Program-made: the position numbers and the translations under genes
In this document: one piece after another, positions 6,567 through 51,784 of the stretch
Numbering within the stretch: the stretch's first letter is position 1
Layout: every line of letters starts with the position of its first letter
Source of the DNA: an uncultured Alphaproteobacteria bacterium
GTDB taxonomy: Bacteria > Pseudomonadota > Alphaproteobacteria > CAAHEQ01 > UBA3637
Length of the DNA: 51,956 nucleotides
Direction: 5' to 3'
Assembly: GCA_949292205.1 (NCBI GenBank)
Contig: CASEYR010000012.1
Coordinates: forward strand, 1 to 51,956
The notes under the pieces: generated by a model
Seen by the model: only the letters and a program-made list of their open reading frames with translations
Database searches by the model: none
Told to the model about the DNA's origin: nothing

Positions 6567-7355
6567 ATGGTTCAAAAGGAAATCAGTCTACGTCCTTTAT
6601 TTCCAAATGCCGTTACAATGACGGCTTTGGCATTCGGGGTGTCTTCATTAAACATGGCTTTTTGGGGACATTGGCAACTGGCGGTTTTATTCATTATGTT
6701 AGCTGCTATTTTTGATTTATTGGATGGCAAAGTAGCCCGAGCTTTGGGCGTTTCTTCTCGATTCGGTGCCGAACTGGATTCCTTATCCGATTTTGTCAGC
6801 TTTGGTGTTGCCCCCGGTGTTTTGATGTATTTATGGACTATGAATGCCGATGTTCGTATAGAAGTTCTAAAAAATGAAGCTTCTCAAGCAAATGCTATCG
6901 GTATTTATTGGGCTGTTGTTTTATTCCTTGCAATGTGCTGTGCAACTCGTTTGGCGCGCTTTAACTCGATGTTAGATGAAAAACAGCCGTCTTATTGGAC
7001 TCATTTCTTCATGGGCGTTCCCGCTCCCTCTGGAGCTGGCTTGGCCATCTTTCCACTTGTCTTATGGTTGGCAACGGATCAACAAATTGATTTTTTCCGT
7101 TCCCCCGTCTTTGTCGGCTTCTTTCTGATTTTTAGTGGCGTTATGATGGCTAGTCGAATTCCGACTTTGAGCCTAAAACATCTGCATATCCCTAAAAAGT
7201 ATATGACGGTTTTGGGGCTTGTTGCTCTTTTAATCTTAGCCGGACTGTTTGCTAACCCTTGGTTGACTCTGAGCTTAATCAGCATCGGATATATTTGTTC
7301 AATCCCCGTTTGTATCTACTACTTTTTAAAATTCAAAAAGGAGGCATTAAAATGA
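6567..7355 (+). CDS. pssA: CDP-diacylglycerol-serine O-phosphatidyltransferase
   Basis: This enzyme makes phosphatidylserine from CDP-diacylglycerol and serine, feeding Psd encoded just upstream. The CDP-alcohol phosphotransferase motif is complete (D50, D53-G54, A57-R58, G67, D71, D75), reading DLLDGKVARAL then GAELDSLSD. Several membrane helices fill the remainder of the 262 residues. Its stop codon overlaps the start of the next gene as ATGA, so the downstream secreted protein is probably translationally coupled. Confidence 0.95.
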   Translation: MVQKEISLRPLFPNAVTMTALAFGVSSLNMAFWGHWQLAVLFIMLAAIFDLLDGKVARALGVSSRFGAELDSLSDFVSFGVAPGVLMYLWTMNADVRIEVLKNEASQANAIGIYWAVVLFLAMCCATRLARFNSMLDEKQPSYWTHFFMGVPAPSGAGLAIFPLVLWLATDQQIDFFRSPVFVGFFLIFSGVMMASRIPTLSLKHLHIPKKYMTVLGLVALLILAGLFANPWLTLSLISIGYICSIPVCIYYFLKFKKEALK

Positions 7356-8373: not shown

Positions 8374-9126
8374 ATGAGTAAAAAAATTCCTTTTCAATCG
8401 CTCTGTTGTCCAACTATTATCTTGGTACGTCCTCAATTGGCGGAAAATGTGGGTATGGTCGCCAGAGCTATGATGAATTGTATGTTATCGGATTTAAGAT
8501 TAGTTTGCCCACGAGAAAATCACTTATCGGAAAAAGCTATCTCGGCCTCATCCGGTGCTCAATCTATTTTAGAGCATGCCGTTGTTTATTCGTCACTAAC
8601 AGAAGCTTTATCAGATATCCACTTCACATTAGCGACAACGGCTCGTCCCAGAGAAATGACTAAACCCGTCTATCATCCGACTAAAGCCGTTACTCTATTA
8701 AATGACAATATAAATCAACAATTAAAAACCGCTTTACTATTCGGTGCCGAACGAACCGGATTAGAAAATGAAGAAATTGTCATGGCGGATGGAATTGTTG
8801 AAATTCCTCTCAATCCACAGCATTGCTCTTTAAATCTATCTCAAGCCGTTTTGCTGATGGGATATGAATGGTTTAAACAAACTCATGATCATGATAATAC
8901 TCACCTTGAAATGGGCGGGGCAAAACCCGCCACAAAACAAGAGCTATCCGCTTTATTTAACCACTTGGAAACTGAATTAGAAAAACGAGGATATTTTCGC
9001 TTTCCGGATAAACGGGAGAGAATGCAACGTAACTTACGAAATATCTTCACACGTTCAGGATTAACTGAGGCCGAAATAAAAACTTTACACGGTGTTATCA
9101 CGGATTTAATTCGACCTCTTTCATAA
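8374..9126 (+). CDS. trmJ: TrmJ-like tRNA 2'-O-methyltransferase
   Basis: This is a SPOUT-superfamily RNA methyltransferase of 250 residues with the knotted-fold signatures in order: VRPQLAENVGMVARAMMN near residue 18, FGAERTGLENEE near 123-134, IPLNPQHCSLNLSQAV near 143-159, then a C-terminal helical extension. This pattern matches TrmJ, which methylates the ribose at position 32 of tRNA using S-adenosylmethionine. The gene begins 2 bases after the preceding stop codon without a convincing ribosome-binding site, so translation may be coupled. The substrate assignment rests on the family. Confidence 0.88.
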   Translation: MSKKIPFQSLCCPTIILVRPQLAENVGMVARAMMNCMLSDLRLVCPRENHLSEKAISASSGAQSILEHAVVYSSLTEALSDIHFTLATTARPREMTKPVYHPTKAVTLLNDNINQQLKTALLFGAERTGLENEEIVMADGIVEIPLNPQHCSLNLSQAVLLMGYEWFKQTHDHDNTHLEMGGAKPATKQELSALFNHLETELEKRGYFRFPDKRERMQRNLRNIFTRSGLTEAEIKTLHGVITDLIRPLS

Positions 9127-9958: not shown

Positions 9959-10073
9959 CTTGTTTCGTTATTGTTTTTACCTCTGCGTTTGATTGTCCTA
10001 ACCGGTAGGATAAAAAACAGAGTCCCGTAACAAAAAAAAGACAAATAAGAAAAACCATTATTTTATGTATCAT
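9855..10073 (-). CDS. Small membrane-anchored protein, Rz-like inner-membrane spanin candidate
   Basis: The 72-residue product has one N-terminal transmembrane segment (about residues 5-24) and then a periplasmic charged helix, ending NANRDELLKRMRAGIL. One anchor followed by a short helix, with a lipoprotein gene overlapping its 3' end, fits two-component phage spanins that fuse inner and outer membranes during lysis. It is shorter than lambda Rz but similar to compact spanins of temperate phages. No other phage gene is adjacent, so it may be a domesticated remnant or an isolated lysis cassette. Confidence 0.6.
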   Translation of the reverse strand: MIHKIMVFLICLFFVTGLCFLSYRLGQSNAEVKTITKQVEVVKYVEKKRSDIYAVPNANRDELLKRMRAGIL

Positions 10074-10155
10074 GTATCATCCTTATGTAAAAATAACTTA
10101 TAAAAAATTCATTTTCATACAATCCTAAATCAATTCATAATCCTCCTTTCATACC

Positions 10156-10183
10156 AAAAAAGGCTTCAGTAACAACTGAAGCC
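10156..10183 (-). terminator. Intrinsic terminator (minus strand)
   Basis: A perfect 9-bp stem GGCTTCAGT/ACTGAAGCC (10162-10170 with 10175-10183) has a 4-base loop and is followed on the minus strand by TTTTTT. It is the second of two tandem terminators that separate tRNA-Val from the spanin-like cassette. Confidence 0.8.
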
Positions 10184-10185
10184 AT

Positions 10186-10211
10186 AAAAAAAAGCCGGAT
10201 ACACTTCCAGC
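10186..10211 (-). terminator. Tandem intrinsic terminator (minus strand)
   Basis: In minus-strand RNA the stem GCUGGA/UCCGGC (with one G-U pair) is followed by eight U residues. The same stem is mismatched if read from the plus strand, so it acts on the minus strand. Confidence 0.65.
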
Positions 10212-10331
10212 CTTTAAAACGTTTTCATTATATCACATTTTTTTATAAATGTCAAGAAATTAAGCAAAAAGCCCCTAAAACAGACACCGACTTTTTCTAA
10301 TTTACCTAAAAATCAATTTATTATGAAAGAT

Positions 10332-10357
10332 AAAAAAAAGAGGGCATCAAACCCTCT
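10332..10357 (-). terminator. Intrinsic terminator of tRNA-Val
   Basis: The 6-bp stem AGAGGG/CCCTCT (10339-10344 with 10352-10357) is followed on the minus strand by eight T residues. It lies about 10 bases after the tRNA CCA end. Confidence 0.8.
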
Positions 10358-10366
10358 GTTAAAAAT

Positions 10367-10443
10367 TGGTGGGTGTGGCAAGACTCGAACTTGCGACCTT
10401 TACGATGTCAACGTAACGCTCTAACCACCTGAGCTACACACCC
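10367..10443 (-). tRNA. tRNA-Val (GAC anticodon)
   Basis: This 77-nt tRNA has the acceptor stem GGGTGTG/CACACCC, the D-arm AGCTCAGGTGGTTAGAGC, the anticodon loop TTGACAT (GAC, reading GUC/GUU), the T-arm AGTTCGAGTC and an encoded CCA end. It has its own promoter and terminator. Confidence 0.97.
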
Positions 10444-10464
10444 TTTGAAATCGAAAGTAATGTT

Positions 10465-10493
10465 CTTTTACACGATTTCAAAACAAAATGCAA
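10465..10493 (-). promoter_or_regulatory. Probable promoter of tRNA-Val
   Basis: The minus strand shows TTGCAT (10488-10493), a 17-base spacer and TAAAAG (10465-10470), placing transcription start about 14 bases before the tRNA. Confidence 0.55.
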
Positions 10494-10572
10494 GTGTTTT
10501 TTACAAAAAAATAATTTTTTTTATACATCTCGAAAAAATTTAGAATTCGCTTTTTGTTATCAGGCATAAATG

Positions 10573-12357
10573 CTACGGATTCCGAGGTGTAACAAGGATG
10601 ATTTGGCCCTTGGCAAAACCATCTCCCTCTCGCCTTAAATCAAGAGAATGCATTTTTATCACAGAAAGACCGGCTTTTTCCAAGCATGATTCAATAAACG
10701 AGACACGATATACATAGCGACCACTTTCAGATAAAACTACATCATCTTGCTCGGTCGTTTCCACAGAAAAAGCAAAAATACCCTCTTTATCTAAATGTGT
10801 CGAAATCGCCGAACAAAAAGAAGCCATATCCGGCAAATACTCTAACAACTCAACCGCTACAATCAAATCATAGCTCTGAGGGGCTGTTTTTAAAAAAGAG
10901 ATGACATCACTATCGTGCAGCTGGTTATAGACACCACTTGATTCCGCAAAATGAAGCATATTCTTTGAAAAATCAACACCTGTTATATCCATCCCTTTTT
11001 TAAAAAAGGCTTTTCCAAACGCTCCGGTACCACAGCCCAAATCCAAAATGGTGTGATAGTTACGCAACGGTAGTAACTTTATTAACTCATCAACTGCTTT
11101 AGATTGCAACTGTCGCATACGATCATCATACGTATCGGCAAAGCTATCATATAATCGTTTTGCATAGTCAATAGGAATCCCTTTTTCCTTTTTTCCCCTT
11201 AAAGCAGCATAAGTGTGAATGGCTATTGGATTATCCGGAAAGTTTTTGACCCAACCTTTTGCGAAATCTAAAGCCTGACGCCGTTCTTTTTTACCTCGCC
11301 GAAATAAAGACGTTAATGTATCGGCTATTCTGAAATCTAAATCGGGAAATTGACCATTTTGGGACAACACATTAAAGTATAAACCCAATGCTTCAAGCTC
11401 ATCCCCTGTTTCCTCCTCAATTACCGCCAAGTTATAAATTGACGGTAAATAATTCGGGTGTTGTGCCAAAACCGAACGATAATGTTCTAGCGCTTCCGGC
11501 AAACGCTCTTGCTCATAAAGTAAAACCGCCAAATTATGGTGTGCCTCAACATAGTTCAAATCTTGTTGTAATGCTCGTTTATAGGCATCCTTGGCCGCTG
11601 AAATGTCATTCACCCGACGATAGGCATTTCCTAAATTAGTCCATCCATCCGCCCGATACGGATCAATATCAATCGATGTTCGATAAGCTTGAGTCGCTTC
11701 AGAAAAACGTCCCAACTGCTCTAGAATCAATCCTTTTTCTATCTCAAACGAAGCATTATCAATCAATTCAATCGCTTGATTTATTTTAGACAATGCTTTA
11801 TCTGGCTCTCCTTTTTGACGATAAAGCGAAGCTAAATACGCCAATAAATCAGGGTGCGGTGTCTGCTCTACCTGCTTTTCCAAACGAGAAATTGCTTCGT
11901 CCAAATGACCTGCTCGAACATCACTCTGAGCATAGCCCAATACCGCTTCAGGTAAATTCGGCTGAAGAGAAAGTGCTTTTTGAAAAGAGCTTTCGGCAAA
12001 TGAGTCTTGATTTTTAAATAAATAAATAAATCCCTTTTGAGATAGTGCCATCGGATTATTCGGAAACTTGTCATAGTAAGACAAAGCCTCGTCCAAACGC
12101 CCTTGCTTTTGCAGGATAGAAGCCAATAAAAGCTGATATGATTCAACTTGCGGATAGAGCTTAACCGCTTGATACAATAAATCAACTGCCGGCTCTAACG
12201 CATTAGCTTGATAGGCAATCAATCCCAACAGATATAGAGCATCGCCATGAGCCGGCTCGGCATTTAAAACATCTCGAGCTAATATTTCGGCTTGTTCATA
12301 ATCTCCGTTATTATAGGCTTCAAAAGCCGAATTAAGCATTACATCTAAACTACTCAT
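10573..12357 (-). CDS. TPR-repeat protein fused to SAM-dependent methyltransferase
   Basis: The N-terminal two-thirds of this 594-residue protein consists of tandem tetratricopeptide repeats (for example NGDYEQAEILARDVL and GRFSEATQAYRTSIDIDP), roughly ten copies. The C-terminal third is a class I methyltransferase with motif I LDLGCGTGAFGKAF near residue 440 and the acidic post-I segment ITGVDFS. Similar TPR-methyltransferases occur widely, but their substrate is unknown to me. Its start overlaps the rodA stop by 8 bases, so it is co-expressed with the cell-shape genes. A role in modifying a cell-wall or elongasome component is only suggested by that position. Confidence 0.85.
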   Translation of the reverse strand: MSSLDVMLNSAFEAYNNGDYEQAEILARDVLNAEPAHGDALYLLGLIAYQANALEPAVDLLYQAVKLYPQVESYQLLLASILQKQGRLDEALSYYDKFPNNPMALSQKGFIYLFKNQDSFAESSFQKALSLQPNLPEAVLGYAQSDVRAGHLDEAISRLEKQVEQTPHPDLLAYLASLYRQKGEPDKALSKINQAIELIDNASFEIEKGLILEQLGRFSEATQAYRTSIDIDPYRADGWTNLGNAYRRVNDISAAKDAYKRALQQDLNYVEAHHNLAVLLYEQERLPEALEHYRSVLAQHPNYLPSIYNLAVIEEETGDELEALGLYFNVLSQNGQFPDLDFRIADTLTSLFRRGKKERRQALDFAKGWVKNFPDNPIAIHTYAALRGKKEKGIPIDYAKRLYDSFADTYDDRMRQLQSKAVDELIKLLPLRNYHTILDLGCGTGAFGKAFFKKGMDITGVDFSKNMLHFAESSGVYNQLHDSDVISFLKTAPQSYDLIVAVELLEYLPDMASFCSAISTHLDKEGIFAFSVETTEQDDVVLSESGRYVYRVSFIESCLEKAGLSVIKMHSLDLRREGDGFAKGQIILVTPRNP

Positions 12358-42079: not shown

Positions 42080-42241
42080 ATGACCCAAGTAGAAAAATTA
42101 ATTAAAATAATTATGCCCGATATCCTAAGATATTTGGAAATGCAAGAAAGTGGTGAAATTATTCAGAAAAGACTGGATAAAATAAAAAATCCAAGCATTC
42201 ATTGTGATCACGAAAACGAAAATAATGGAGGTACACAATGA
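42080..42241 (+). CDS. Small hypothetical protein, first gene of recombinase operon
   Basis: The 53-residue product (MTQVEKLIKIIMPDILRYLEMQESG...) is a mostly helical, charged protein with no recognised domain. The start at 42080 follows AAAGGAGG at ideal spacing; the longer upstream frame would cross the repeated element and has no ribosome-binding site. Its stop codon overlaps the DUF2924 start as ATGA, so it is the first of three coupled genes ending in the recombinase. It might be an accessory to recombination, but that is inference from position. Confidence 0.65.
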   Translation: MTQVEKLIKIIMPDILRYLEMQESGEIIQKRLDKIKNPSIHCDHENENNGGTQ

Positions 42242-42648
42242 AATCGGTCGTAGTTGAAATAGCTTTATTAAAGAATAAATCTTTACCAGAGCTACAAGAA
42301 ATGTGGAAAGAATATTTTACAGAACCAACGATCTCTCAAAATAAAGAGTTTTTTGTTTCCCGAATAGCTTATCGAATACAAGAGCTTGCTTACGGAGGTT
42401 TACCAAAGGCACAACAAAAACTTATTGCACAGATGTATGTCCCTCCGGATGGAAGAAAGAACCTTCCGCCAACCGGTACACGAATTATTCGTGAATACCA
42501 ACAGGTTGAACATTCGGTCATTATTCTAAATGATGGCTTTGAATACAATGGGATGAAGTACCCAAGCCTATCAGCAATTGCAAAAAAAATAACCGGTAGA
42601 AAAATATCTGGCAGATATTTTTTTGGTATTGATAAACAAGGAGAATAA
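42238..42648 (+). CDS. DUF2924 family protein
   Basis: The 136 residues match the DUF2924 pattern closely: LPELQEMWKEYF near 15-26, FFVSRIAYRIQELAYGGL near 41-58, PPTGTRIIREYQQVEHSVIIL, and the end motif YPSLSAIAKKITGRKISGRYFFG. The family is common in alphaproteobacterial mobile regions, where it is often encoded directly before a large serine recombinase, as here. Its biochemical role is not known; the basic, possibly DNA-binding C-terminal half and fixed gene order suggest it assists the recombinase. It overlaps the preceding gene as ATGA, and the recombinase start follows its stop by 1 base. Confidence 0.9.
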   Translation: MKSVVVEIALLKNKSLPELQEMWKEYFTEPTISQNKEFFVSRIAYRIQELAYGGLPKAQQKLIAQMYVPPDGRKNLPPTGTRIIREYQQVEHSVIILNDGFEYNGMKYPSLSAIAKKITGRKISGRYFFGIDKQGE

Positions 42649-42649
42649 A

Positions 42650-44356
42650 ATGGAAACACAAAAACAGATACGATGTGCAATTTACACAAGAAAGTCAACA
42701 GATGAAGGACTTGAAAAAGAATTTAATACCTTAGAAGCTCAACGAGAAGCCGGTGAGAACTATGTTAAAAGTCTGAAACACCAAGGTTGGATAACAATCC
42801 CAGAACATTATGACGATGGTGGTTTTAGTGGTGGCAGTTTAAAACGCCCTGCTTTAAAACGACTTATTGAAGATGTTGAGGCTGGAAAAGTAGATATGAT
42901 TGTTGTTTATAAAATAGACCGACTTACCCGTTCACTTCTTGATTTTGCACAACTTGTTAAAACTTTTGAAAAGCATAACTGTTCATTTGTATCTGTCACA
43001 CAACATTTTAATACTTGCGATTCCATGGGTAAGTTGACTCTAAATATTTTATTATCCTTTGCTCAATTTGAAAGAGAACTGGGTGCGGAACGTGTACGTG
43101 ATAAAATCGCCGCAAGTCGAAAAAAAGGAATGTGGACTGGAGGTTCTGTCCCTTTGGGATATACCCTTAAAAACAAGAAACTGATTATCGAGCCTTCTGA
43201 AGCTGAAATAATTCGATTTATATTTGAAGATTATATCCGTACAAGGTCGGAAGCGGCTACAACGCATAATGTAAACAATCGAGGTTATAAACCTAAAGAA
43301 CGACGAAATAAGGATGGAACATTAAAGAATAATGATGAGTTTAATCACTCGATGATAAATAACATTTTAAACAATCCTATTTATCTTGGAAAAATGCCTT
43401 ATAAAGGTGAATTGTATGAAGGACAGCACGAAGCTATTATTACTCAAGAATTATGGGATCGAACAATAAATTTAAAGCACGATAATTTGAAGAATGCCTT
43501 TAGACCGTCTCGTTCTATAAAGCATAGCCTATTAAAAGGTCTGCTTGAATGTGAGTGTTGTGGTACGATGATTCCCACACGCAGTAAACATGGCAATAAA
43601 TATTACGAATACTATTCTGCTCTAAAAGGTGTAAAAGAAGGCGTTAAATATAAACCGTGTAAAATAGGAAGTGTTCCAGCTGGAGAGCTAGATACATTTG
43701 TTATCGGTAAAATACAGCAGATATTTAAGTCACCAGAAATAATAAAAGAACTGGCTCGTCAATTAGAAGAAGTCAATCCGAACTACACTGCCAGTACAGC
43801 TTTTGATTTAGTCAATGATATTGGAGAAGTTTTTCAGTATTTTGAACCGGCAACCGTTCATGATTTTATCGCAGAAATTTTAGAAAAAGTTATTTTGCAT
43901 AAAGATTATATAGAAATAAAGTTAAAACCTTATGGGGCTCAGATTTATGAAAATCAACTAATAGGAGAAAATCCTAATTACTGTAAAAAAAGCCTAATTC
44001 TAAAATATGAAGTAACTTTTGGACGTAAACGGGGAAGTGTTAAAATTGTAGAGCCAACAAATCCGACAAAAGAACACCCTGCTCGAGATGAAAAACTATT
44101 TAATGCAGTAACGCAAGCATTTTATTTAAAAGAGAAAATGGAAACAAGGAAATGGTCGTTGGCAGAGTTATCTAAACATGAACGATGCAATCATAGTTAT
44201 CTTGGTCAAATCATTCGTCTTACTACCCTTGCACCCGATATTATTATGGCTATTTTAGAAGGTCGTCAACCAAAACTACTCACTTTAAGAAGATTATTAA
44301 GAGAGCGTTTCCCGTATTCTTGGGCAGAACAACGTCGTGAACTTGGATTTGAATGA
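42650..44356 (+). CDS. Large serine recombinase
   Basis: This 568-residue site-specific recombinase probably integrates and excises the element. The resolvase catalytic domain occupies about residues 5-155, with the nucleophile Ser16 in YTRKSTDEG, then KIDRLTRSLLDF and LLSFAQFERELGAERVRDKI. A Recombinase domain (NNPIYLGKMPYKG) and a zinc-ribbon segment with CECCGT follow. The C-terminal domain with a helix-turn-helix-like end (NHSYLGQIIRLTTLAPDI) is typical of alphaproteobacterial members. The start at 42650 follows AAGGAG; an earlier in-frame ATG lies inside DUF2924. A terminator follows the gene. Confidence 0.95.
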   Translation: METQKQIRCAIYTRKSTDEGLEKEFNTLEAQREAGENYVKSLKHQGWITIPEHYDDGGFSGGSLKRPALKRLIEDVEAGKVDMIVVYKIDRLTRSLLDFAQLVKTFEKHNCSFVSVTQHFNTCDSMGKLTLNILLSFAQFERELGAERVRDKIAASRKKGMWTGGSVPLGYTLKNKKLIIEPSEAEIIRFIFEDYIRTRSEAATTHNVNNRGYKPKERRNKDGTLKNNDEFNHSMINNILNNPIYLGKMPYKGELYEGQHEAIITQELWDRTINLKHDNLKNAFRPSRSIKHSLLKGLLECECCGTMIPTRSKHGNKYYEYYSALKGVKEGVKYKPCKIGSVPAGELDTFVIGKIQQIFKSPEIIKELARQLEEVNPNYTASTAFDLVNDIGEVFQYFEPATVHDFIAEILEKVILHKDYIEIKLKPYGAQIYENQLIGENPNYCKKSLILKYEVTFGRKRGSVKIVEPTNPTKEHPARDEKLFNAVTQAFYLKEKMETRKWSLAELSKHERCNHSYLGQIIRLTTLAPDIIMAILEGRQPKLLTLRRLLRERFPYSWAEQRRELGFE

Positions 44357-45098: not shown

Positions 45099-45344
45099 AT
45101 GATCAAACCAAAAGATACAGTTTTTGAAGTTATTAAAGAAATTCCTGCAGATGCGATGGTATCTCTGTCTTTCAAACAGTTGAGAGAGTTTGAAAGCCGC
45201 TTAAAGGACGAAGTTATTTACTATTCCTTGAAGCATAAAGAAAAGACAAAAGACTACCAACGAGCTGTTCTTGCCCTACGTTGGGTGCAAGGGATTATTC
45301 GTATCAAAACAATGGATACGATGAAAGGACCTAAAAATGGATAG
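45099..45344 (+). CDS. Small hypothetical phage-type protein
   Basis: This 81-residue soluble protein has an acidic N-terminal half and a basic C-terminal half, predicted helical (FKQLREFESRLKDEVIYY). No family is recognised. It has AAAAGGAG 7 bases before the ATG, preceded by both the repeated 39-base element and an inverted repeat. Its last 8 bases overlap the start of the DUF6291 gene, so it is the first gene of a three-gene coupled set probably concerned with element replication. Confidence 0.65.
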   Translation: MIKPKDTVFEVIKEIPADAMVSLSFKQLREFESRLKDEVIYYSLKHKEKTKDYQRAVLALRWVQGIIRIKTMDTMKGPKNG

Positions 45345-46014
45345 AAAAACGTCATTCGTGTTTTATCCGGCGGAGTTCCTTGCTTCTGTGTATAATTTTA
45401 CAAATTGTGAATGTGCGACATTAATTAAGGCACTTTGTGAATACGCTCTGTACGGAAAAATCACAAAAAATTTATCGGAAAAACTTCAAGACCGTTTTAA
45501 TTTTTTGCAAGCAGGCATTGATGAAAACAATCGCAAATATTTTGAAACCTGCGAAAAACGTAAGGCTGGCGGCTCTAAAGGTGGTCGGCCAAAACGTGAA
45601 AAGGAAAACCTTAAGGTTTCTGAACCACCGCCAAATTTCGCCAACGAAAAACCTGATAAGGAGAAGGATAAGGATAAAGGAGATGAAGAGTCCGGATATG
45701 TTTTTATTAAAAATAATAAAAATAAAGGGGCTGAAAATGTGGATAAGTCAGGATATGTTGGTGCTCCGAGTATTGAAGAAGTAGCTGAATACTGTAAACG
45801 AAGTGGCTATACAATTGACCCTGTCGCCTTCGTTCGGTGGAACGAAGAACGTGGTTGGATGAACGGCAAGAAATACATTGCCGTTGACTGGCGTAAAGCC
45901 GTTAGGAAATGGTTTTGCAAGGAGAACGGTCTCGCATACTCGGAAATGGAGACTATGACGGACATCTGTCATGATGTGCTTAGCAAAGTAAAGGTGGTGC
46001 CGGATGAAACCTAA
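45337..46014 (+). CDS. DUF6291-containing replication-type protein
   Basis: The 225 residues begin with a DUF6291-like domain (about 1-70: KTSFVFYPAEFLASVYNF, ALCEYALYGKITKNLSEK, FNFLQAGIDENNRKY). A basic, low-complexity linker rich in Lys/Gly/Glu spans about 80-140. A C-terminal domain follows (about 145-215) with PSIEEVAEYCKRSGYTIDP and WMNGKKYIAVDWRKAVRKW. Such an N-terminal domain, linker and C-terminal winged-type segment is common in phage replication-initiation or helicase-loader proteins. AAAGGA lies 8 bases before the start, which overlaps the preceding gene. Confidence 0.75.
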   Translation: MDRKTSFVFYPAEFLASVYNFTNCECATLIKALCEYALYGKITKNLSEKLQDRFNFLQAGIDENNRKYFETCEKRKAGGSKGGRPKREKENLKVSEPPPNFANEKPDKEKDKDKGDEESGYVFIKNNKNKGAENVDKSGYVGAPSIEEVAEYCKRSGYTIDPVAFVRWNEERGWMNGKKYIAVDWRKAVRKWFCKENGLAYSEMETMTDICHDVLSKVKVVPDET

Positions 46015-46556: not shown

Positions 46557-47558
46557 ATGAAAAAAACCGCAGAGTTCGTTTCGCTCGGACACCCGGACAA
46601 AACGGCTGACTATATTTCCAGTTATATCCTTAACCGCATGATCGCCCAAGACCCGGACGTCAAATATGCCGTCGAGGTGATGATCAAAGACAACACCATC
46701 GTTTTAGGAGGTGAAATCAAAGGAAAGGTTGTCCTGTCAGATGTCAAAGAGTTCGTTAAAAATGCCCTGAGAGATATCGGTTATGATGAAACATATGCCG
46801 AAAACTGGGGATCATATGCCATAGATGTTCGCAAAATCGAAATCATAAACCTCATAGGCCAGCAATCAGCAGACATAAACCAAGGTGTTGTTTCCAATGG
46901 TTGGGGAGATCAAGGTGTGTTTGTCGGGTATGCCTGTAAAGGCGAAGGTTTGATAAACCGAGAACTTTATCTTGCTCGTATTCTAAATAATGCCCTTTAT
47001 ATACGGGCACGTCAAAGTAAAAACCTTGGCATTGATATAAAAACACAGATTACCTTGAACGACTACGGCCGCATTGAGACGGCTGTTGTTGCAATTCCGA
47101 TGAAAGAACCGGAAGATCTAACAGATTTTATCATTGATGTACTCGGAGAAAAGCCTGACAATATCATCGTAAATGGCACCGGAAGTTTCAAATTACATTC
47201 CTCCATCGCAGACTGCGGCATTACCGGTCGCAAATTAGCCTGCGATTTTTACTCTACCGCCTGTCCGATTGGTGGTGGTTCCCCTTGGACGAAAGACGGC
47301 AGCAAGGCCGATGTGACATTAAACATCTACGCTCGCAGGTTAGCTCTCCGCTATTTGGAAGATAACGACGAGTGTTTTGTTTATCTCTCCTCCTGCATCG
47401 GCCGTTCCGAACTTCCCAGTGCCGTAGTCAAAACTATCAAGTCAGGTGTCGAAACCAACACAGCAATTTCTGTGAACAAAACCCCGGTTGAACTGGTTGA
47501 AGAGTTAGACCTAACTAAACCGGTTTATGCCCGACTATGTCGAAATGGTTTGGTATAA
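46557..47558 (+). CDS. metK: Short, divergent S-adenosylmethionine synthetase
   Basis: MetK makes SAM from methionine and ATP. This 333-residue protein is shorter than the usual 380-400. Conserved segments are GHPDK at 11-15, QQSADINQG at 102-110, GDQGVFVGYA at 117-126, TGRK at 223-226, and the phosphate loop GGGSPWTKDGSKAD at 239-252, where cellular enzymes have a GAFSGKDxTKVD form. The N-terminus is trimmed and the C-terminus ends early. It lies in the mobile region with AAAAGGAG before its start, one gene away from a SAM-using DNA methyltransferase. A phage-type auxiliary enzyme is the likely reading; activity depends on the altered loop. Confidence 0.88.
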   Translation: MKKTAEFVSLGHPDKTADYISSYILNRMIAQDPDVKYAVEVMIKDNTIVLGGEIKGKVVLSDVKEFVKNALRDIGYDETYAENWGSYAIDVRKIEIINLIGQQSADINQGVVSNGWGDQGVFVGYACKGEGLINRELYLARILNNALYIRARQSKNLGIDIKTQITLNDYGRIETAVVAIPMKEPEDLTDFIIDVLGEKPDNIIVNGTGSFKLHSSIADCGITGRKLACDFYSTACPIGGGSPWTKDGSKADVTLNIYARRLALRYLEDNDECFVYLSSCIGRSELPSAVVKTIKSGVETNTAISVNKTPVELVEELDLTKPVYARLCRNGLV

Positions 47559-47576: not shown

Positions 47577-47929
47577 ACGTATCATACTAACGACATATAA
47601 TCCCGACTTTTGGGCATAATTGCCGGATAGTATCATACTATGCGAACATATAACATTATATGTCGGTGTTGCCTCACATATGAGACATATATGTGGGCTA
47701 TTCTGACGGAATATTGCCCTATATTGCACATATATTTGACATATGTTCGCATATATTTGCATATATGTTCGCTATGATAAACCATAGCCCGACCGTCCCG
47801 TCACAATAGGCATATAGTATCATACTATCAAGACGGTATCGAGGTTTTGGGCCGGATTTGACGGATAGTATCATACTATCAACATACTCTCTCGGGTTTT
47901 GGCCCGTTTGGGTGGTTAGTATCATACTA
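47577..47929. repeat. Palindromic 51-base-register repeat array
   Basis: The odd palindrome TAGTATCATACTA occurs at 47628-47640, 47815-47827, 47866-47878 and 47917-47929, with a diverged copy at 47577-47589. Copies 1-2, 3-4 and 4-5 are each exactly 51 bases apart; copies 2-3 are 187 apart. The spacers share a weak consensus around TTTTGGGC and TTGNCGGA, so the full 51-base unit, not only the core, is repeated. This is an iteron-like arrangement. Confidence 0.85.
47641..47780. other. AT-rich core with nested ACATAT repeats
   Basis: This stretch separates palindrome copies 2 and 3. It is much more AT-rich than its flanks and repeats ACATAT/ATATGT many times, with GCGAACATAT (47642-47651) inverted as ATATGTTCGC twice near 47744 and 47763. 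An AT-rich block inside an iteron array is a common layout for a DNA-unwinding element; that reading is inference. Confidence 0.5.
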
Positions 47930-48096
47930 ACGAGATACTATCTCGGACAGCTCCGGGGCAACGGGTCCTTCCTGGGCTCTGTTCGTATGCGGGGACGCAA
48001 GCCGCCCGATTTTTCTAGCGAAACACCTTTTTCTTTACTGGTCGCCCATACTCGGAAACCCTTGTATTTACTGGGGTTTGAGGGTGTCTTATTTTT

Positions 48097-48130
48097 TCTG
48101 GCTGGTCATTTCAAAATCTGGCTGGTCACT
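48097..48130 (+). repeat. Direct repeat at the methyltransferase promoter region
   Basis: TCTGGCTGGTCA occurs at 48097-48108 and again at 48117-48128, exactly 20 bases apart, ending 26 bases before the methyltransferase start codon. Two identical sites with two-turn spacing suggest an operator, possibly for autoregulation. Confidence 0.55.
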
Positions 48131-48153
48131 TTGCATTTTTTATGGAGAATTAC

Positions 48154-49410
48154 ATGGAATTTAATGAAAAATATCCTACCGAAAAGCTCATCCCATATGC
48201 CCGAAACTCTCGGACACATAACGATGAACAAATCGCCCAAATTGTGGCAAGCATTAAGGAGTTCGGTTTCACAAACCCAATCCTGATTGGAGATGATGAT
48301 GTCATAATCGCCGGTCATGGTCGATTGATGGCGGCCCAACGTTTAGGTATGACAGAGGTTCCGGTCATCAGGTTACCTCACTTAACCGAAACACAACGCC
48401 GGGCCTTGGTCATTGCCGACAATAAGATTGCTCTAAATGCCGGATGGGATGAAGAGATGCTCCACCTTGAAATGGAAGAACTCTCGGAATTAGACTTTGA
48501 TTTGAACCTGCTTGGGTTTAATCCGAACGAACTAAACGAAATCCAACTGTTCGGAGAGGAAAAGTCGTCCGGTAACACCGATGATGACGAAGTTCCGGAA
48601 GCACCCGAGGAAGCTGTCACAAAGCATGGCGATATTTGGCAACTGGGCAGACACCGTCTGCTTTGTGGCGATACCACCATGATAGATGACGTTAAAAAGC
48701 TGATGCAGGACGAAGTCGCCGATATGATTTTCACAGACCCACCTTATAATGTGAACTATGGCTCCACCATGAAAGACAGCATTCGCTATCATGCCGGTTC
48801 ACTCGGTGGCCGAAAGATTATGAACGATAACCTTGGCGAAGGTTTCGCTCAATTCTTAACGGACAGCCTGTCCAACATGATGATGTATTGCAAAGGTGCG
48901 GCCTATGTATGCATGAGTTCATCTGAACTGCACACCCTTTATAACTCGTTCATTAATGCCGGTGGCAAATGGTCGACCTTTATTATTTGGAAAAAGAACA
49001 CATTTACTCTTGGCCGAGCCGATTATCAGCGACAATATGAGCCTATTCTTTACGGTTGGAACGCCGAACAAAAGCACCATTGGTGTGGTGATCGAGATCA
49101 GGCAGACGTTTGGGAATACAATAAACCGGTCAAAAACGACTTACACCCGACAATGAAGCCGGTTGAACTGGTGGAAAGAGCTATAAATAACAGCTCTAAA
49201 ATCGGGAATATCGTTTTAGACGGTTTTGGAGGCTCCGGCTCGACACTGATTGCGTGCGAAAAAACGGGTCGTTCTGCCCGATTAATTGAGCTAGATCCGA
49301 AGTTTTGTGACGTCATCATCAGGCGTTGGGAGGAATATACCGGCAATAAAGCCCAACTTATTGAAAATAAAGCAGAAATAACCGAAAATGATGCAGAATT
49401 AACTGGATAA
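48154..49410 (+). CDS. ParB-like domain fused to DNA methyltransferase
   Basis: The 418-residue protein starts with a ParB/sulfiredoxin-type domain (about 1-75: NPILIGDDDVIIAGHGRLMAAQRLGMTEVPVI). A beta-class DNA methyltransferase follows, with catalytic motif IV DPPYNVNYG at 195 and SAM-binding motif I LDGFGGSGSTLIACE near 355-369; DPPY before FxGxG is the beta order. It probably methylates adenine N6 or cytosine N4. Such fusions are common in phages and mobile elements of Proteobacteria and have no restriction partner here. The start at 48154 has GGAGA 6 bases upstream; the ATG four codons earlier has none. Its last codons lie in a repeated leader. Confidence 0.93.
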   Translation: MEFNEKYPTEKLIPYARNSRTHNDEQIAQIVASIKEFGFTNPILIGDDDVIIAGHGRLMAAQRLGMTEVPVIRLPHLTETQRRALVIADNKIALNAGWDEEMLHLEMEELSELDFDLNLLGFNPNELNEIQLFGEEKSSGNTDDDEVPEAPEEAVTKHGDIWQLGRHRLLCGDTTMIDDVKKLMQDEVADMIFTDPPYNVNYGSTMKDSIRYHAGSLGGRKIMNDNLGEGFAQFLTDSLSNMMMYCKGAAYVCMSSSELHTLYNSFINAGGKWSTFIIWKKNTFTLGRADYQRQYEPILYGWNAEQKHHWCGDRDQADVWEYNKPVKNDLHPTMKPVELVERAINNSSKIGNIVLDGFGGSGSTLIACEKTGRSARLIELDPKFCDVIIRRWEEYTGNKAQLIENKAEITENDAELTG

Positions 49411-50102: not shown

Positions 50103-50141
50103 TAAAAATTATTGAAAAACAAGCACTTATTTTCAAAATAA

Positions 50142-50220
50142 ATGCAGAATTAACTGGATATAATTCGAATTCCAAGCAATACTATAAGTGTAAGCAAAGG
50201 CAAGGATAGCCTAGCAAAAC
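50142..50220 (+). repeat. Repeated leader element, copy B
   Basis: This copy closely matches 49391-49469 and contains GGATATAATTCGAA with a TATAAT box (50159-50164). The stem AGGC/GCCT (near 50198-50212) corresponds to the differently sequenced stem of copy A. It ends about 22 bases before the gene at 50243. Its upstream flank also resembles the end of the methyltransferase gene. Confidence 0.75.
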
Positions 50221-51706: not shown

Positions 51707-51751
51707 CTTATAAGTCCTTTCATTGATTAGGTTTAACACAACTTGAATGAA

Positions 51752-51784
51752 TGCTTGGATTTACAATTATATCCAGTTAATTGT
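51752..51784 (-). repeat. Repeated leader core, copy C (opposite strand)
   Basis: On the minus strand AATTAACTGGATATAATT (51765-51782) followed by CCAAGCA (51752-51758) matches copies A and B, with TATAAT pointing toward the DUF3489 gene. It lies between divergent genes, as expected for a shared regulator-binding or promoter element. Confidence 0.7.

Follow-up and report, generated by a model that had tools for sequence, protein, structure and literature searches.

A 51-bp palindrome array beside a predicted lambda-type cos site in temperate phages and satellite-like elements of uncultured Alphaproteobacteria

Introduction

The sopC site of the F plasmid consists of tandem units, each of which holds a palindrome, and the replication origins of SaPIs or of lambda contain iterons. 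In characterised lambda-type cos sites, cosQ, cosN and cosB suffice, and termination of lambda packaging requires cosQ (PMC4669245). EcCICFT073 and the PICIs related to it possess helper-type cos sites, sometimes two of them (PMC6739421).

The present analysis deals with a palindrome array in a prophage of an uncultured Alphaproteobacteria bacterium. The window, that is the whole stretch of DNA analysed, is 51,956 nucleotides long and represents the whole contig C12 (CASEYR010000012.1) of a 1.32-Mb draft genome (GCA_949292205.1). The phage is truncated by the contig end, and all the data are sequences from draft and metagenome assemblies. An earlier note, made from the window sequence alone, had described the array between a SAM synthetase and a ParB-domain methyltransferase, and both neighbours were recovered here (Table 1). 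Its account of the surroundings was incomplete, as the description stopped 34 bp before the start of a predicted cos site, which it overlooked. The note knew no described element of this exact form, and likewise no description of such an array beside cos was found in the open-licence literature.

Results

Organization of the palindrome array

The array is composed of five copies of a 13-bp palindrome, four exact and one degenerate, with start-to-start distances of 51, 187, 51 and 51 bp. Copy number, positions and the single diverged copy agree with the earlier note. At the position of the degenerate copy 1, three sister phages have ACATATCATACTA and the phage of genome G028 has a perfect palindrome. 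Under a dinucleotide-Markov null model of the 404-bp stretch, four exact copies of any 13-mer were obtained in 0 of 5000 simulations (maximum 2). The self-match of the right-hand part of the array peaks at lag 51 (66%) and lag 102 (57%), in line with the previous description of the whole 51-base unit as a degenerate repeat. The AT-rich core flanked by the array is also present as described; it is found only in the phage version and is missing from the satellite arrays. The suggestion that the copies face the same side of the DNA holds only approximately, since with 10.5 bp to the helical turn a distance of 51 bp corresponds to 4.86 turns.

Table 1. Features of the window around the array and the predicted cos site
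Feature	Position	Strand	Remarks
DUF2924-family protein	42238..42648	+	gene cluster F01, same as the Pfam-tested satellite copy
Large serine integrase of the prophage	42623..44356	+	
DUF6291 protein	45337..46014	+	putative phage replication protein
S-adenosylmethionine synthetase, metK	46557..47558	+	left neighbour; phrog_1569; PF00438, PF02773
Palindrome copy 1	47577..47589	none	degenerate, ACGTATCATACTA
Palindrome copy 2	47628..47640	none	exact, TAGTATCATACTA; 51 bp from copy 1
AT-rich core	47641..47814	none	with ACATATATGT-like inverted repeats
Block homologous to satellite arrays	47814..47931	none	about 118 bp; ends at the outer palindromes
Palindrome copy 3	47815..47827	none	exact; opens the three-unit block common with satellites
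Palindrome copy 4	47866..47878	none	exact
Palindrome copy 5	47917..47929	none	exact; starts 46 bp left of cosQ
cosQ-like site	47963..47972	+	GGGTCCTTCC (lambda: GGGTCCTTTCC)
cosN-like core	~47987..48005	+	ATGCGGGGACGCAAGCCGC; constant distance from cosQ
R3-like site	48034..48043	+	ACTGGTC; constant offset from cosQ
R2-like site	48097..48108	+	TCTGGCTGGTCA; constant offset from cosQ
R1-like site	48117..48129	+	TCTGGCTGGTCAC; constant offset from cosQ
ParB_N-domain DNA methyltransferase	48142..49410	+	right neighbour; phrog_498; PF02195, PF01555

In the whole 1.32-Mb genome, the palindrome occurs with at most one mismatch at the window locus and on contig C11 only. The start of C11 carries three copies at spacings of 51 and 51 bp. 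Scatter of the repeats across the host genome, for which the earlier note had proposed to look, is not seen, and the operator of a host regulator was rejected on the same ground, there being no further copies at this threshold. A coding repeat (51 bp being 17 codons) was also rejected because the reading frame is not kept across the 187-bp gap and the symmetric changes of the palindromes suit DNA better. As for an RNA element, the folding z-scores of -4.8 and -4.4 are as expected for any self-complementary repeat set, the most that the 13-mer can form is a weak AU stem of 5 bp around a 3-nt loop, and Rfam gave no match at the array. No toxin gene follows the array, and a type III toxin-antitoxin repeat RNA was discarded for this reason.

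Predicted cos site adjoining the array

Directly right of the array the sequence reads ACGGGTCCTTCC...ATGCGGGGACGCAAGCCGC, and the feature which begins 34 bp from the array end is taken to be a lambda-type cos packaging site, as predicted from its sequence. In an alignment with lambda, cosQ and the cosN core match in order and with near-equal spacing, and the arrangement GGGTCCTTCC-N14-ATGCGGGG keeps a constant spacing in all the loci. Three CTGGTC-type repeats, resembling those of cosB, follow at +71, +135/136 and +155 to +158 from cosQ; these offsets hold in nearly all cos sites examined, and the repeats are putative TerS-binding sites. In the related phage L023, a phrog_57 TerS, a GpA-type TerL, a lambda-family portal, a head protease and a decoration protein are encoded downstream of cos, a region which in the window lies beyond the contig end. 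The same cosQ/cosN core is situated directly before a gene reading as terminase in an unrelated IMG/VR phage (L026). The motif GGGTCCTTCCT-N13-ATGCGGGG is present in 15 of 43 host-family genomes and in three of 385 genomes sampled across the class, all three belonging to the host family.

Two tandem cos sites about 190 bp apart were observed in the satellite-type L099 (oriented 8045 and 8236), L097 (oriented 4308 and 4501), L103 (731 and 924) and L095, where the first site is degenerate. Within such a pair the R sites differ in type (TTTGGGTGGTCA and TCSGGCTGGTCA), which would suit the use of two helper phages; EcCICFT073 offers a precedent for the double cos. A third cos site in the genome of the window lies on another prophage (L098, G000:C21).

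Array-bearing phages and satellite-like elements

The 51-bp array was found in five phages (the window, L037, L023, L052 and L064) and in five satellite-like elements (L007, L021, L022, L024 and L062), of which L007 resides in the same genome as the window phage. Relative to cosQ, all the 51-bp arrays found lie either 46-48 or 76-77 bp to the left. As far as the contigs extend, the phage order is DUF2924, serine integrase, sigma-like gene, DUF6291, DUF6362, metK, array, cos and ParB-domain methyltransferase, followed by terminase and head genes. The satellite order, where the contig reaches, is DUF2924, serine integrase, DnaD-like initiator, array, cos and defence genes, the latter representing type I restriction, Gabija, and Mza with Vsr and a cytosine methylase. 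The satellite initiator is DnaD-like/O-like (phrog_2514, phrog_345), and the array comes directly after its gene. Besides the integrase gene, the array and cos form the main DNA that an array-bearing phage has in common with satellites. Among the array-bearing satellites read on both sides, flanking genes converge on the array-cos block in three of four.

The elements of genomes G004 and G030 are bounded by DUF2924 and by carD of the host and measure about 20-22 kb; inspection of their gene lists by eye revealed no capsid, portal or terminase gene. They share with PICIs the integrase, the replication gene, the helper cos and the apparent lack of capsid and terminase genes, and the satellites possess a large serine recombinase instead of the tyrosine integrase of PICIs. 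The shared cos type, along with the missing structural genes, suggests that the small elements may be satellites mobilised by phages of the array-bearing type.

A promoter-like element, approximately TTAACTGGATATAATTNNAAATCCAAGCATTCATTG, is dispersed before genes of both phage and satellites. It was seen in the window at 42164-42205, 50133-50178 and 51715-51782 (minus), in L099 at oriented 8453-8518 and in L021 at 6869-6910, and it is a candidate regulon signal common to phage and satellites. On C11, the region right of the satellite of the window genome (L117, 1167-10108 of G000:C11) contains genes which, judged by eye, resemble those of a podovirus-type prophage, and then ATP synthase genes.

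Conservation and distribution

The arrays of phage and satellites are homologous over about 118 bp, corresponding to the right-hand triple from first to last palindrome, with 76-79% identity. In the comparison with L021, the palindromes are identical at 36 of 39 positions (92%) and the rest of the block at 50 of 80 (62%; Fisher p=0.0004), and L007 and L022 show a similar pattern. The middle satellite palindrome, equivalent to copy 4, is in most satellites TACTATCATAGTA or TACTATAATAGTA; it is mostly altered on both arms together and so is still a palindrome. The palindromes and the 51-bp register are thus kept between phage and satellite arrays while the spacers diverge. With palindromes conserved above the spacers and arms that change symmetrically, the pattern speaks for a dimeric DNA-binding protein, with DNA and not RNA as the likely active form.

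A scan of 84,980 bacterial and archaeal genomes covered pairs of the palindrome with all spacings within 36-66 bp. The 51-bp form was found only in Alphaproteobacteria MAGs, and these loci adjoin cos. INPHARED phages gave no DNA match, IMG/VR contained one array-bearing contig, and a scan of viral contigs with an initiator fragment gave a remote match only. In the human faecal record MT837927, no cos was found within 285 bp after metK. A single palindrome in genome G042, with no second copy and no cos, was taken as chance and rejected as an array member. The same 13-mer, TAGTATSATACTA, is carried by Prevotella and other Bacteroidaceae (L047-L050, L054-L061, L063, L065 and L067-L071), mostly in 22-bp tandem arrays over several contigs which are apparently unrelated to cos.

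Relatives without the array

At least eight phages (L038, L042, L044, L093, L094, L100, L102 and L104, with L042 and L102 near-identical) have an array-free gap of 7-85 bp between metK and cos. In L044, this slot holds a single palindrome. It is filled by other genes in L098 and, judged by length and sequence, in L123, and its cargo in relatives includes a radical SAM, nitroreductase or kinase-like gene. A radical SAM/SPASM gene and an unknown gene lie in the slot of L098. In the L023 slot, some 600 bp of additional noncoding repeats (10070-10670) precede the array on the metK side, with 212-bp copies 377 bp apart and 70% alike, and these repeats were not found elsewhere in the family.

Several phages keep the flanking genes without the palindromes, an arrangement which the earlier note had counted against its own reading. 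The TerL and TerS of the array-less phage L038 are 96-97% and 89% identical to those of array-bearing phages, and the ParB-domain methyltransferase in array-less phages shows 73-82% identity. The integrase and the initiator of satellite L099 are 99% and 96% identical, respectively, to those of the array-bearing L021, and a 209-aa gene sits in the place of the array. Because L038, with near-identical TerL and TerS, and L099, with a near-identical initiator, are without the array, these comparisons indicate that it is accessory, being required neither by that cos type nor by that initiator.

In every array-bearing cos site examined the R sites belong to a single, TCTGGCTGGTCA-like type. Other types are found in most of the array-less cos sites, but the satellites L035 and L095 share the TCTGGCTGGTCA-like type. 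The link of the array to one R-site type may reflect shared ancestry, as the five phages and five satellites come from one host family and are not independent. Near cos, no gene family was restricted to array-bearing phages except array-overlapping ORFs and F35, one small ORF present in only two of them.

Discussion

Taken together, the array probably represents a hitherto undescribed control site that serves in the copying or packing of viral DNA. A tentative preference is given to an accessory cis-acting protein-binding element on the cosQ side which favours packaging and is carried alike by temperate phages of gut alphaproteobacteria and by defence-carrying satellites whose cos sites match. 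An effect on packaging is suggested by the constant position beside cosQ and by the occurrence of array and cos together in otherwise largely different elements, and the convergence of flanking genes in satellites argues for a function at the DNA level. A putative dimeric protein, which we infer to be encoded by the helper phage, would bind the palindromes. At three sites with 51-bp spacing, the dimers may act cooperatively and give order to the DNA that immediately precedes cosQ, and the resulting nucleoprotein complex would favour packaging of the DNA which carries it. Speculatively, the packaging motor could be slowed or docked so that cosQ is recognised at genome completion; alternatively, the complex could draw terminase or procapsid to cos. 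Satellites retaining the same element would then compete for the phage packaging machinery. A narrower form, in which the array is an undescribed extra cos subsite, an upstream enhancer that serves a phage dimeric protein, raises packaging and was copied by satellites, is doubtful.

The adjacency of the satellite initiator and the AT-rich core of the phage support a role in replication. The palindromes would be iterons for a phage or satellite initiator, the core an unwinding region, and the position beside cos would simply result from the satellite initiator gene ending there. The DnaD-like/O-like initiator gene is immediately followed by the array, the phage palindromes flank the core, and the initiator genes of L021 and L099 and their surroundings revealed no other iteron set, internal iterons included. 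Iterons of an origin are expected to go with their cognate initiator, but the 96% identical initiators of L021 and L099 occur with and without the array. The DUF6291 protein is retained by array-less phages, the satellite array is devoid of the core, and phage and satellite initiators differ in their N-terminal parts although their arrays are homologous. An accessory origin is therefore rather unlikely, and the obligate origin among the options of the earlier note is unlikely on the evidence of L099. That note had also offered a partition site bound by the ParB-domain methyltransferase. Tandem palindrome-bearing units recall sopC of the F plasmid and a ParB_N domain is encoded next door, but this protein has only ParB_N and methyltransferase domains with no HTH match, occurs in array-less phages and is not found near cos in array-bearing satellites. 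No ParA was seen among the tested neighbours, and the element has a serine integrase; a centromere is hence very improbable.

Palindromic sites would equally suit a dimeric phage regulator which controls the promoter of the methyltransferase/packaging operon from between two co-directional genes, with the satellite copy as a decoy. This is hard to reconcile with the convergence of flanking genes on the array in three satellites, with the absence of any promoter-like site above chance at the array, and with the array-less phages, in which cos follows metK within 7-85 bp with no comparable array. The palindrome is found nowhere else in the window genome (at most one mismatch) besides the cos-linked C11 copy, and a different, dispersed promoter-like element is common to phage and satellites. 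Such an operator is improbable, and the master operator of the earlier note fared no better, with no scattered copies in the genome and convergent genes in three of four satellites. Of similarly low probability are inert repeats that build up in the cargo slot, variable in content, which separates the last gene of the left arm from cos. The slot is indeed variable, being nearly empty or occupied by a single palindrome (L044), cargo genes or the further repeats of L023, but inert DNA would hardly maintain palindromes and a 51-bp register while spacers diverge, or change symmetrically so as to preserve the palindrome.

If the packaging-related element preferred here does act on packaging, the lambda-type cos of cosQ, cosN and cosB gains an extra module in some phages, through which satellites would compete with their helpers. 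The array and the cos motif also reveal apparently undescribed serine-integrase, cos-bearing satellites in uncultured gut alphaproteobacteria, equipped with Gabija, Mza and type I restriction systems, and GGGTCCTTCCT-N13-ATGCGGGG provides a DNA signature for finding more such elements.

Among the known systems, sopC of the F plasmid resembles the array in its tandem units, each with a palindrome. It differs in that the array is linked to cos, has no ParA/ParB pair with HTH, and is common with satellites where the ParB-domain protein is not seen. The iteron origins of SaPIs and lambda are similar in having repeated palindromic sites by AT-rich DNA, here with an adjacent satellite initiator gene, while the 51-bp spacing, the position beside cos and the absence from L099, a satellite with a nearly identical initiator, set the array apart. 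The cos site itself agrees with the lambda type in cosQ (GGGTCCTTCC), in the CGGGG cosN core at near-equal distance, in three regularly spaced R-like repeats as lambda R3, R2 and R1, and in the lambda-type terminase genes downstream. Its R-site sequences are unlike those of lambda, and lambda has no palindrome array left of cosQ (PMC4669245). The satellites are most like the Gram-negative cos PICIs such as EcCICFT073, with an integrase, a replication gene, a helper-type cos and no capsid genes found. They are distinguished from these by different hosts, by the lack of a recognised Rpp gene, by a serine instead of a tyrosine integrase, by the DnaD-like initiator and by the array which adjoins their cos.
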